Positions 20,933 to 27,188 of a stretch of DNA of 64,000 nucleotides are shown piece by piece. The stretch is from Prochlorococcus sp. AG-347-I21 (GTDB lineage: Bacteria > Cyanobacteriota > Cyanobacteriia > PCC-6307 > Cyanobiaceae), in the NCBI GenBank assembly GCA_003279055.1, contig QCBP01000001.1:186001-250000 (forward strand), read 5' to 3'. The notes beneath the pieces were generated by a model. It saw only the letters and a program-made list of their open reading frames with translations, ran no database searches and had not been told where the DNA came from. A program made the translations under genes and the position numbers. The stretch's first letter is position 1, and each line of letters begins with the position of its first letter.

Positions 20933-22693
20933 TTATTTTTCTAATTTGAAATGATTATGAATCGCATTAACTGCTTTGTCACAATCTTTTTCCAAGACAA
21001 TACATGAAGTCCTTATTTCGCTAGTGGCAATCATTTCAATATTGATATTTTGATCAGCCAAAGCTCTAAATATTTTTCCAGCCGTTCCAACCTTAAATGC
21101 CATTCCTGCTCCAACAGTACTTACTTTGGCTATAGCAGGCCCATCTTCAATGAATGATCCGGGTAATTTTTTTGTTAAGGCCTCAAAAACTAAGTTAGCT
21201 TTTTTTCTATCTTGTTTGTTCATTGTAAGACTAATATCCTTAGTTTTAAAAGAGGAAATTCTTTCAGACTGCACGATAGTATCGAAAAGTAAATTATTTT
21301 CAGCTAATGCTAAACATATCGATGCTGCTACACCTGGACGATCAGGCAGTTTTCGAAAACTTACTTGAACTTGGTTTTTATCTAATGCAATTCCTCTTAC
21401 TTCAGGTTGATTTCGTTTTTCGTTAATTGGATTAATAAATATTTGTGTATCGGATAACTTAAATTTTTCAGCAACAAATCTAATAGCTTTTGGAATATTA
21501 TTAATTTCAATTACGCAGCTGACTTTAATTTCACTAGTAGCTATTAACCTGACATTTATATTCGCTTGAGATAAAGTATCAAATAAATCAGCTGAAACAC
21601 TAGGTCTACCCATAATGCCCGCTCCTTGAATACTTAATTTAGTCATGTTTGTTTTTAGATTATATTCTCCTCCTAATTGACTAGTTATAAGTTCACATTG
21701 TTCTTCAGTCTTTTTGACTTCTAATTCACTAACAGTAAATGTAATATCGTTATTATTTCCATCATTTGTAGCTTGTATGATTAAATCGACATTAATACTT
21801 GCTTCTGAAAGTTTTTCAAATATTTGTGCAGCAATTCCAGGCCTATCAGGAATATTTGAGAGACTGAATACTGCTTGGTTTTCTAGTACTTCAAGACTAT
21901 TTACTGTTTTTGTTAATTCTAAGCTTCCTCTTTTTAGCGGGAGAGGTTGGATTTGACTCTCTAGTAGAGTCCCACTTGATTCACTTTGGCTTGATTTGAC
22001 ACATAATTTAATTCCATAATTGCGAGCAATTTCTACTGCTCTTGGATGCAGAACTGAAGCACCGACGCTTGCAAGTTCAAGCATTTCCTCACAGCTAATT
22101 TCATCTAAGAGTTTTGCATTAGGAACAATTCTTGGGTCAGTAGTAAGAACCCCTGGAACGTCTGTATAAATTTCGCAAGTCTCAGCTCCTAAAGCTGTTG
22201 ATAAAGCTACTGCGGAAGTATCTGAACCACCTCTACCCAAAGTTGTAATTTCCATTGAACCCGTATGGCTTAATGTTGTTCCTTGAAACCCAGCCACTAC
22301 AACTACAAAACCCTGATTTATATAATTTCGGATTCTTTTTGTTTCTATATCCAGAATTCTCGCTTTCCCATGTATTGATTCAGTGATAATTCCAACCTGG
22401 CTACCGGTCATTGAAATTGCAGGTATTCCGTATTCGTTTAATGCCATTGAGAGAAGAGCTATGGTTACTTGTTCTCCAGTTGACAGAAGCATATCCAATT
22501 CTCTTCGATTTGGATTTTTACTAATTAATTCCGCTAAACAATTTAAATCATCTGTAGTTTGCCCCATCGCAGAGACAACCACGACAACTTCATTTCCTGC
22601 TTCTTTACTTTGACAAATGCTTTTTGCAATATTTTTAATTTTTTTAATATTACCGACAGAAGTACCGCCAAATTTTTTTACTAGTAAAGCCAT
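20933..22693 (-). CDS. lysC: Aspartate kinase with four ACT domains
   Basis: Monofunctional aspartokinase (586 aa) phosphorylating aspartate for lysine/threonine/methionine synthesis. The kinase domain begins with KKFGGTSVG (res. 6-14) and runs to about 250. Two pairs of ACT regulatory domains follow; each pair has a PDRPG motif and an ATSEI motif (NIPDRPGIAA and LIATSEIKVS; KLPDRPGVAA and MIATSEIRTS). This duplicated ACT layout is characteristic of cyanobacterial LysC and gives feedback control by lysine and threonine. It is downstream of holA on the same strand (39 bp from the restored holA stop) and convergent with uvrB (7 bp apart). Confidence 0.97.
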   Translation of the reverse strand: MALLVKKFGGTSVGNIKKIKNIAKSICQSKEAGNEVVVVVSAMGQTTDDLNCLAELISKNPNRRELDMLLSTGEQVTIALLSMALNEYGIPAISMTGSQVGIITESIHGKARILDIETKRIRNYINQGFVVVVAGFQGTTLSHTGSMEITTLGRGGSDTSAVALSTALGAETCEIYTDVPGVLTTDPRIVPNAKLLDEISCEEMLELASVGASVLHPRAVEIARNYGIKLCVKSSQSESSGTLLESQIQPLPLKRGSLELTKTVNSLEVLENQAVFSLSNIPDRPGIAAQIFEKLSEASINVDLIIQATNDGNNNDITFTVSELEVKKTEEQCELITSQLGGEYNLKTNMTKLSIQGAGIMGRPSVSADLFDTLSQANINVRLIATSEIKVSCVIEINNIPKAIRFVAEKFKLSDTQIFINPINEKRNQPEVRGIALDKNQVQVSFRKLPDRPGVAASICLALAENNLLFDTIVQSERISSFKTKDISLTMNKQDRKKANLVFEALTKKLPGSFIEDGPAIAKVSTVGAGMAFKVGTAGKIFRALADQNINIEMIATSEIRTSCIVLEKDCDKAVNAIHNHFKLEK

Positions 22694-22732: not shown

Positions 22733-23733
22733 TTAACTTAAATTAATTAAATTCTCTGTAAAAACATTTATAGGATTATTACCTTGTTTTAGTAATGATT
22801 CAATATCTAATAACTTACTCATTAAATTAACTAAATATTCTTGCGATACATTTTTCACTTTTCTTCGAATAAAAAAAATTCTTTTTGGATTAGTAATGCC
22901 TGCAAGATTACAAATCTTTTCTGAATTATCGTTTCCTGAATTAATAGCTAATTTTATAATGGTATGAATTCTTATTTGACTAATTAAACCTGCATTTAGT
23001 CTTAAAGCAGGTTCTCCTTCCTGTAAGAAATAATTTATTTCAATGAGGCTTTCATTAATATTTTTTTGTAAGAGAAGATCAATGATTTTGAAAATGTTAG
23101 ATTGATGATCATTAAATATTTTTTTACATCAATACTTTTAAGAAAAAGTTGTTCATGCGAATTATTTGATACTGCAGAAAGGTATGTTTTTGCTTTGGCT
23201 AATTCATTAATAAGTTTAAAGCTATCATTCCCAACCGAATCAATAATTAATTCAACTGCATTTTTATCAATTTTGATATTCATTTCATGTGCCGCATCTT
23301 CTAAAAATCTTTTTTGTCCCTCATAGTCCCAGACTTCTGGTAAAGAAAATGATTTTTCTTTGGCTAAATTATTTTTGATAAGTTTTTGTAAAAATTTAGT
23401 GCTCTTTAGTCTTGAGTCTGGTTTTTTTGAATTTTGTAAAATGAAATAAGTATTTTGAGGTATATTGTCATGTATTTTTTCAAATTTAGTTCTTAGATCT
23501 TCATTTTTTGAAGTAAAAATTGGATTATTTTTTAATGTAACTATTCTGTATCCATCTCCAAAAGGAGGTGTAAGAACTTCATCAAAAGCTTTATTGACTT
23601 GTTCATCATCATCTCCATTTAAATTAGTTACATTTATTTCTTTCCATTCTTTGGATACTTCCTTATCAATTAATTTTTTTATAAATCTATTTTGAGCATT
23701 TAGATCATTACCCCATAATATTTGTATTGGCAT
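22733..23733 (-). CDS. holA: DNA polymerase III delta subunit, frame break at an A7 run
   Basis: Clamp-loader subunit that opens the sliding clamp. From ATG 23733 the first frame encodes delta-like sequence (MPIQILWGNDLNAQNRF, then GDGYRIVTLKN) to codon 205, but then runs out-of-register and would stop at 232 aa. At the coding-strand run of seven A (23119-23125, read GTA AAA AAA) a -1 shift opens a second frame of 128 codons (IFNDHQSNIFKIIDLLLQKN...) ending at TAA 22733, with the helical C-terminal domain expected for delta. The restored product is 333 aa, a normal delta length. Either slippage at A AAA AAA makes full-length protein or one A is missing from the sequence. Confidence 0.85.
23119..23125 (-). 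other. A7 homopolymer at the holA frame break
   Basis: On the coding strand this is A-AAA-AAA within codons V203-K204-K205, followed by T. The heptamer A AAA AAA permits tandem -1 re-pairing of both tRNAs and is also a classical poly(A) site for RNA polymerase slippage. One extra A, or a -1 ribosomal shift, joins the two holA frames exactly. Confidence 0.8.
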
Positions 23734-24446: not shown

Positions 24447-27188
24447 CTACTTAATATCATAATTTAATTTATTATTTTCTTCTAAAGAATTTAAAACTGA
24501 TTGTGCTTTTTCTATAACTTCTTTTGGAACTCCTGCTAACTTAGCTGCCTCTATACCGTAGCTTTTGTTTGAGCCCCCTTTGACAATCTTGTGACTAAAA
24601 ACTAACTGATCGTTATTTTGTTCTACTAAAACTTGAAAATTTTGTATATTCTTATTTGAATTTTTTAAATAATTTAGCTCATGATAGTGCGTAGCAAAAA
24701 TAGTATTACATTGAATTTTTTTTGCAAGATATTCACTTACTGACCAAGCTATTGAAAGTCCATCAAAAGTAGATGTCCCTCTACCTATCTCATCAAGTAA
24801 AACTAGTGAGCTAGAAGTTGCCTGATTTAGAATTGATGCGGTTTCAGACATTTCTACCATAAATGTTGATTGTCCAGATGATTGATCATCGACCGCCCCA
24901 ATTCTTGTAAAAATCCTATCTGTAATCTTGATTTCAGCATGATTAGCAGGAACAAAGCTACCAATTTGTGCGAGAATTTGTATTAAACCAAGTTGCCTTA
25001 TAAAGCAACTTTTTCCACTTGCATTGGGACCGGTTAATATAATTAATTTTTGATTATTATCAAAAGAGATATCGTTCGCTATAAACTTTTTATCATTCAA
25101 CAATTGCTCTACAATTGGGTTCCTTCCTGCGATAATTTTTGTACTATTTTTTGTTATTGAATCATTTATTGGTATTAATGAAGGTTTTATAAAATTGTTT
25201 TCTACTGTAGTAATTGATAATCCAAGCAATGCATCAAGAGATGCAATAGATTTTGCGATTGATCTTATTTGTTTTGTTTTTTCAGAAACTGTATTTCTTA
25301 ATTCGCAGAAAATTTCATATTCTCTTGATGAAGCTCTACTTTTTATTTGGAAAATCTTATTTTCTTTATTTTTAATTTCTGAAGTGATATACCTTTCTTC
25401 ATTAGTAAGTGTTTGCCTTTTGATCCAATGATGTGGAGCTAAATTAACTTTTGATTTATTTATAGAAATGTAGTAACCAAAATTCTTATGAAATTGAATT
25501 TTTAAGTTTGAAATTTTGCTGATTTTCCTTTCTTTTAATTCCTCTTTATTTAGCCACTCAGAGTAATCATCCATTAAATTACGTAAACCATCTAATATAT
25601 TGTCAACACCATCATGAATCATGCCTCCTTCACTAATATTTAGAGGAGGATTCTCTATTAGTTTAAAACTTATAGTGTCAGCTAATTCTAATAGTTCTGC
25701 ATCAATATTTTTTAATTGATCAGTCCAATCTGGGAGATCATATTTAAATAATTCAATTATAGATTTTAGTCTAGGCAATTTTTTTAAACCTTCCGCTATT
25801 GCAATTAAGTCTCTAGGACTTGCATGACCTGCACAAGCTCTACCAGCAAGTCTTTCTAAATCTCCCATTGCTCTAAGTAAATTTTGGGTATCTATACGTG
25901 ATTGTTTAGATTCAATAAAGTTTGTAATTATATTTTGTCTTTTATAAATTTCATGAACGTTTAATAGTGGTGAATCTATCCATCTTCTTAAACACCTTGC
26001 ACCCATGCAAGTATAAGTTCTATCAATACTCCATAGTAGCGAACCTACATAATTGTTTTCTCGTTGTGTATTTTTGATTTCTAAGTTTTTTTGAGTTTGA
26101 TAATCAATAATTAATTTGTTGTGACCAAATTGAATTTGTGGAAAGTCTAATGAGATTTTTACAGAAGAATCTTTATCTAAATTTGAAGGATTAATTTTTT
26201 CTAAATAATTTAATAAACCACCAAGAGATCTTGTAGCGTTGTTTAAATTTTTAAGTCCTATTCCTTCTAGGTTTGCAATTTTGAAATATTTTTTTATTAG
26301 ATAATTTGCTTCAATAATGCCAAAATTAGTCTCTAGAGAAACAGTATATGTAATTTGACTATTTTCTTTAATTAATAAATTTCTTACTTCATTGCTTCCT
26401 ACAATGATTTCTGAAGAATCTAATTTAATAATTTCATCAAATAGCTTTGAAAGAGATTGACCTTCTAAAGTTATTAATTCTCCTGTGCTTACATCAGCTT
26501 TTGATATACCCCATTCATAAGATTCATCTGAGTTTTCTTCAGATAAGTAAATAGCAGTAATCCAATTATTTTTCTTTGCTATCAACATCCCCTCTTCAAT
26601 TACAGTTCCAGGGGTAATTATTCTTGTTATTCCTCTTTTAATTGGAGTCCCATAATTTCCAGAACTTTTTTCTAATTGGTCGCATATAACCACAGAATAA
26701 TTTTTTTTAATTAAATCAGCACAGTATCTTTCCATTGCATGATGGGGAACCCCTGCCATAGGGATCTTACCAATCTCTTTGCCAGCATCTTTACTGGTAA
26801 GTGTTATTTCTAAAAGGTTAGATATTAATACAGCATCCTCAAAAAAACATTCAAAAAAATCTCCTAATCTATAAAGTAATAACCTATCTTTATTTTCCTC
26901 TTTTAGAGTTACATAATGCTTCATTACAGGAGTTAATTTCAGTTTTGAAACTGTTTTATAGCTATAAGATTCTTCATTGATGCAAACATTTTTGTTATTT
27001 GAAATTAAATCAGTCTTGAATTTATTTATTAAATTATTTGAATTTTTTCTTTGTCTAGGTCTTTTTTTCGATTCTTTTTTTAAATCTTCCCAAGAAAAAT
27101 CTTCTGGAATTTTTGTTATTTCTTCTTGCTTATTGTTTTCATTACCAATCGCAAATAAATTCTTTTGAATTATCGTATCTTCTTCCAT
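24447..27188 (-). CDS. mutS: DNA mismatch repair protein MutS
   Basis: MutS1-type mismatch-recognition ATPase, 913 aa. The mismatch-reading Phe-x-Glu motif appears as [10 protein letters not shown] near res. 108, about 85 residues later than usual because of a Lys/Asn-rich N-terminal extension. The lever/clamp region follows, then Walker [10 protein letters not shown] (about res. 717-725), [12 protein letters not shown] and ATHYHEL. It therefore has a complete DNA-binding and ATPase architecture. MutL is not in the window. The gene is divergent from psbZ and convergent with cobH (31 bp). Confidence 0.96.

Follow-up and report, generated by a model that had tools for sequence, protein, structure and literature searches.

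In one draft genome of Prochlorococcus, the gene holA, which encodes the delta subunit of DNA polymerase III, is laid out in two reading frames that part at a run of seven A, and the locus raises the question of whether the cell itself carries and reads across this break or whether the break belongs to the genome record. The gene lies in a stretch of 64,000 nucleotides, referred to here as the window, for which the original prediction had offered three readings: programmed production of two delta forms, slippage that rescues a broken gene, and an error of one base. Both holA and rpoB, with which it is compared below, are essential genes.

Layout and domain content

The gene starts at ATG 23733 on the minus strand, and its zero frame reaches a stop at 23035 after 232 codons (Table 1). 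Codons 1-205 of this ORF read as delta, while the last 27 are an out-of-frame reading, in agreement with the earlier claim that the tail of the 232-codon frame does not resemble delta. The coding strand across the run at 23119-23125 is GAT GTA AAA AAA TAT, and the -1 frame entered there is free of stops through 128 codons and ends at TAA 22733, leaving a gap of 39 bp to the ATG (22693) of the next ORF. The original prediction was correct in all of these coordinates and lengths, in the openness of the second frame, and in its description of A AAA AAA as a slippery heptamer, the phase GTA AAA AAA being right in the zero frame. Aligned with the delta of a closed relative (G031), the 5' frame shows 93.7% identity to residues 1-205 and the 3' frame 88.5% identity to residues 204-333, a match in two frames that exceeds chance.

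Profile searches assign the two frames to different parts of delta. PF06144 (delta) hits residues 5-117 of the 232-aa frame at E 1.5e-17, and PF21694, the delta C-terminal domain, hits the 128-codon frame at E 1.3e-13. With the holA profile TIGR01128 the 5' piece scores 77.8 bits and the 3' piece 67.5 bits, each below the cut-off of 80, and their coverage is complementary, spanning profile positions 3-195 and 195-313 of 316; the intact holA of MIT 9314 (L053) scores 132.3 bits. The C-terminal domain, which forms the collar of the clamp loader, begins at residue 211 in the delta of an intact relative, and the short zero-frame product would be made without it. The genome (40 contigs, 1,557,900 bases, 96.84% complete) gave a single PF06144 match at E <= 0.001, so the intact second holA for which a check had been proposed was not found in it by this profile search.

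Table 1. Features of the holA locus (window coordinates) and frame breaks or length differences elsewhere (genome and contig coordinates; entries beginning with a contig number belong to the genome that carries the split holA)
Feature	Position	Strand	Basis or remark
holA 5' part, zero frame, 232-aa ORF	23035..23733	minus	ORF list, PF06144, TIGR01128
A7 run (T7 on the plus strand), site of the frame break	23119..23125	minus	
holA 3' part, -1 frame, 128 codons and TAA, delta C-terminal domain	22733..23119	minus	
Downstream neighbour, 586-aa ORF, putative lysC (name from the original prediction)	20933..22693	minus	ORF list
Broken holA, G101 (draft, 66% complete)	G101:C20:11386-12083 (L307)		extra base in A run
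Broken holA, G212 (draft, 53% complete)	G212:C7:2554-3251 (L308)		extra base in A run
rpoB, split into two frames near codon 175, single contig	G136:C1:22368-25659		
rpoB, apparent break with internal stops	G226:C54:4349-5672		
A8 vs A7, ahead of presumed start	C1:260392		31 of 48 other matching genomes also with a separate N-terminal piece (manual count)
Two-frame candidate	C5:15.5k		split common to 19 of 32 other matching genomes (manual count)
Two-frame candidate	C4:22.2k		split common to at least 23 of 31 other matching genomes (manual count)
Two-frame candidate, 90-aa ORF	C1:11.5k		of 36 other matching genomes, one (G205) has it split as well
Gaps near or ahead of likely start	C4:9.6k, C1:288.6k, C6:78.1k, C2:53.5k, C3:87.2k		judged by pairwise alignment alone
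Gap near or ahead of likely start, least certain of the six	C3:112.5k		pairwise alignment alone

The A run in relatives

Matches to the 232-aa product were obtained in 205 of 266 genomes of the genus, the present one included, the 55 weakest of the 205 being listed separately. Among the matches listed, the holA frames of other genomes are open at 335 or 339 codons, and in a manual count that took in the 55 weakest as well, all 28 matching genomes of ten contigs or fewer have holA as an open frame, 311-359 codons in length. Under a strict start filter, 137 of 139 loci hold a 333-aa single-frame gene; in one of the remaining two (L290) the contig begins inside the gene and the other (L297) is a more distant gene; in each, one frame aligns with the reference delta. 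The locus nearest to the split gene reaches up to 95.4% nucleotide identity.

Over the whole gene, alignment gave a net surplus of one base relative to the window in 109 of 109 loci from other genomes, a set drawn from two overlapping sources in which some genomes are counted twice. At the site itself, 103 of the 109 distinct intact sequences drawn from the 137 single-frame loci have A8, and the other six have an interrupted or shorter run that stays in frame. An exact-pattern search for A7 and its flanks, which divergent flanks would escape, hit one of the 266 genomes, the present one. The comparison of run lengths that had been suggested as a check therefore sets A7 in this genome apart from the A8 of most relatives, and the distribution of intact runs argues that the run is kept by base composition and by its Lys-Lys codons rather than as a signal. 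Where the relatives read GTA AAA AAA ATA, losing a single A gives the phasing GTA AAA AAA automatically. A pseudogene was also considered and was rejected, as both frames are open, no second copy was found in the 96.84% complete genome, and holA holds no further lesion, its net length gap to the aligned loci being exactly that one base.

Signals for programmed frameshifting

Slippery heptamers follow the motif X XXY YYZ in the zero frame, and the clamp-loader gene dnaX of E. coli undergoes a programmed -1 frameshift. The split holA is like dnaX in its A-rich heptamer, in the -1 phase and in being a clamp-loader gene, and the occurrence of A AAA AAA in the right phase is what speaks for a programmed shift that would yield a short and a long delta as in E. 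coli. It is unlike dnaX in that it has no conserved split, no upstream Shine-Dalgarno-like element and no notable downstream structure, and in that its short form would have no C-terminal domain, which is itself an argument against a programmed short product. In pseudoknot-free folding, the 81 nt downstream of the run gave a z of -0.69, with 46 of 200 shuffles folding as well or better, and the 93 nt around the site gave a z of -0.89 (35 of 200 shuffles), so that no stimulatory fold stands out in either segment; inspection by eye found no AGGA or GGAG just upstream of the run. None of the relatives' loci read here keeps the split: every aligned locus is one base longer, the A7 string is private, the gene is a single frame in nearly all loci and in one frame over the aligned part of the other two, and the run is interrupted or shorter in several distinct sequences. 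With conservation and stimulators both missing, programmed production of two delta forms was rejected, and its probability is put at next to nothing.

Quality of the assembly and frame breaks in other drafts

The assembly was compared with that of the closed G031 (1,704,447 bases) over 914,974 bases, comprising contigs C1-C6 of the 40. Good matches in these six contigs were found for 991 of the 1,962 G031 ORFs that are 80 aa or longer, and 11 of them matched in two frames, holA included; by this comparison, no core gene among the 991 other than holA has a clear mid-gene break. The other candidates are given in Table 1. Within the coding mask and with matching flanks, 107 of 109 eight-base A/T runs are equal in length in the two genomes, the two that are shorter here being that of holA and that at C1:260392. 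Run-length differences not divisible by three number nine in the coding mask, namely these two and seven more; in G031, each of the seven is at most 34 codons from the start of an ORF or at most 2 from the end of one. The near-uniform agreement of the runs shows that the assembly is not a noisy homopolymer caller, and a generally noisy assembly was ruled out for the six contigs compared. A separate observation concerns C1:260317-260837 (L125:317-837), outside the window, where the length of an A run sets a conserved leader in or out of frame with the next ORF; each of the two layouts is widespread in the genus, and the leader may represent either an alternative N-terminus or a small frame upstream.

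Frame breaks of a similar kind are scattered through other genomes. Among the matches listed for the 205 genomes, G101 and G212 have one-base insertions in A runs of holA, elsewhere in the gene. The holA of G257 is truncated by a contig end, that of G049 is on a contig that begins inside the gene, and the only match in G250, a weak one, is to a frame of 197 codons, which is unlikely to be holA. An RpoB match was obtained in 224 of the 266 genomes, and among the matches listed the rows are full length and without stops; ten genomes with two RpoB matches or weak scores were looked at separately. In these ten, the match is divided between two contigs in five genomes and is single and partial in G116 and in G219, the two pieces of G158 form one open frame, and G136 and G226 show the breaks entered in Table 1. 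The apparent rate of frame breaks is thus about 1% of genomes per gene, with three of 205 for holA (the present genome included) and at least one or two of 224 for rpoB, and the drafts concerned all have some 40 contigs or more (rounded figures). One-base breaks elsewhere in holA, together with the apparent breaks in rpoB, look like draft-genome noise. Frame breaks occur in closed genomes too, as seen in G031, which at C1:146172-146766 has a two-base gap relative to a 327-aa ORF of the present genome (C3:57258-58241).

Selection beyond the run

Comparison of the split holA with its ten closest loci gave omega values of 0.15-0.32 for the part ahead of the run and 0.21-0.59, likewise below 1, for the part beyond it, each value resting on 5-11 synonymous and 8-12 nonsynonymous differences and the ten comparisons being non-independent. 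Among 242 pairs of relatives with 80 differences or fewer, the medians were 0.115 before the run and 0.140 after it, and the 90th percentile for the latter part was 0.35. Four of the ten post-run values exceed this percentile, and the pre-run part, too, is higher than the relatives' median. These values give no clear sign of decay beyond the run, and omega would fit a recent deletion and an error alike.

Origin of the missing base

The explanation that best fits these results is that amplification, sequencing or assembly counted one A too few, which is considered probable. The cell's genome would then hold an ordinary 333-aa holA with A8, as most relatives do, one A would have been dropped from the 40-contig draft record at one of these stages, and delta would be produced normally from one frame, the base being absent from the record and, presumably, present in the cell. 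The gap is seen in no compared relative, which makes a sequencing or assembly slip the most likely source. Published indel rates of single-cell assemblies are a yardstick rather than proof, and one that may not apply to the method behind this assembly. A passage of PMC4577099 reports 2.3 indels per 100 kb for single E. coli cells in the tube, 1.1 in droplets and 0.2 for ten pooled cells; a table passage of PMC3549815 gives 2.17 indels per 100 kb for the first-column pipeline with single-cell S. aureus, 1.07 in the block above, and from 0.52 to 47.8 for other pipelines, the table heads lying outside that passage. At the roughly 1-2 indels per 100 kb that these passages suggest for single-cell assemblies (PMC4577099, PMC3549815), one event needs no special cause, although the present scan counts frame breaks in matched ORFs only and is a smaller measure than all indels. 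Two observations stand against an error: the assembly is otherwise clean, and omega values after the run that exceed the relatives' 90th percentile would be expected of real relaxation, few as the changes are.

The same cleanness of the remaining assembly speaks for a real, recent and private deletion from A8 to A7, with slippage of RNA polymerase or of the ribosome on A7 supplying enough full-length delta, an explanation considered unlikely. A -1 re-read at GTA AAA AAA would give back the relatives' residues V-K-K-I-F, and such bypass is on record: according to a passage of PMC3812077, indels in homonucleotide repeats of 3-8 bases, A8 included, recurred in a laboratory gene and were bypassed to functional protein, and a passage of PMC5009743 describes poly(A) runs of insect endosymbionts that lead to 12-50% corrected transcripts. 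An A7 run is short by comparison, as most recorded bypass cases have 10 or more A according to a passage of PMC3812077; the run is also private to this genome, and the scattered holA and rpoB breaks in other drafts suggest a technical cause. The mutation rate of Prochlorococcus HLII, given as 3.5e-10 per site per generation in a passage of PMC10837832, is low and likewise counts against a real deletion. A 913-aa ORF that looks mutS-like by eye lies near holA in the window (24447-27188) and is uninterrupted, with no two-frame match against G031, so a mismatch-repair defect through that gene is not indicated. The low mutation rate, the uninterrupted mutS-like ORF and the private gap together favour the error. 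That A7 is real, the cell alive and holA sustained by unprogrammed slippage on so short a run in a free-living bacterium is accordingly rated as quite improbable.

A real deletion might also have been a null one, caught by chance in a cell or minority lineage without a future. Homopolymer slippage is the main source of indels in the account of PMC3812077, and a genome derived from one cell could carry a lethal mutation of recent origin; with so low a mutation rate (PMC10837832, in the passage cited), such mutations should be much less frequent than technical errors, and nothing observed points to a single-cell origin, so that this explanation is regarded as very unlikely. Among the readings first proposed, the one-base error thus fits best, slippage rescue of a recent deletion retains a small share of the probability, and programmed production of two forms found no support. 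If the error is the right explanation, the locus cautions that one-base homopolymer gaps in drafts mimic split essential genes. If A7 is true, slippage would keep an essential gene of replication working in a lineage abundant in the ocean, and the locus would capture homopolymer breakage being tolerated outside endosymbionts.

Comparison with known systems

The closest comparison is the intact Prochlorococcus holA (TIGR01128; PF06144 and PF21694), which is the same gene with both domains and differs in being read in one frame, the split gene having two frames and one A fewer at one run. The poly(A)-broken genes of Buchnera and Blochmannia, as described in a passage of PMC5009743, are alike in the one-base break at an A run, the open remaining frame and the AT-rich genome; their runs are described as long and their transcripts were measured, whereas the split holA has A7 and was seen in one draft. 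For Prochlorococcus itself, a passage of PMC10837832 hypothesises indels in A/T homopolymers as a route to gene loss. Searches of the literature on slippage or frameshifting in Prochlorococcus and on holA frameshifts, which mostly covered titles and the openings of abstracts, returned nothing pointing to a holA split, and unpublished status is not claimed for it. The split photolyase genes phr4 and phr5 of marine Synechococcus also consist of adjoining frames parted at a homopolymer in a picocyanobacterium (PMC9426592, in a passage that suggests frameshifting without demonstrating it). Their split, at a tract of seven G-C, is described there for all marine Synechococcus and with precise spacing (PMC9426592), whereas that of holA was found in one genome only. 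On the strength of that passage, phr4/phr5 is a better candidate than holA for programmed recoding in marine picocyanobacteria.
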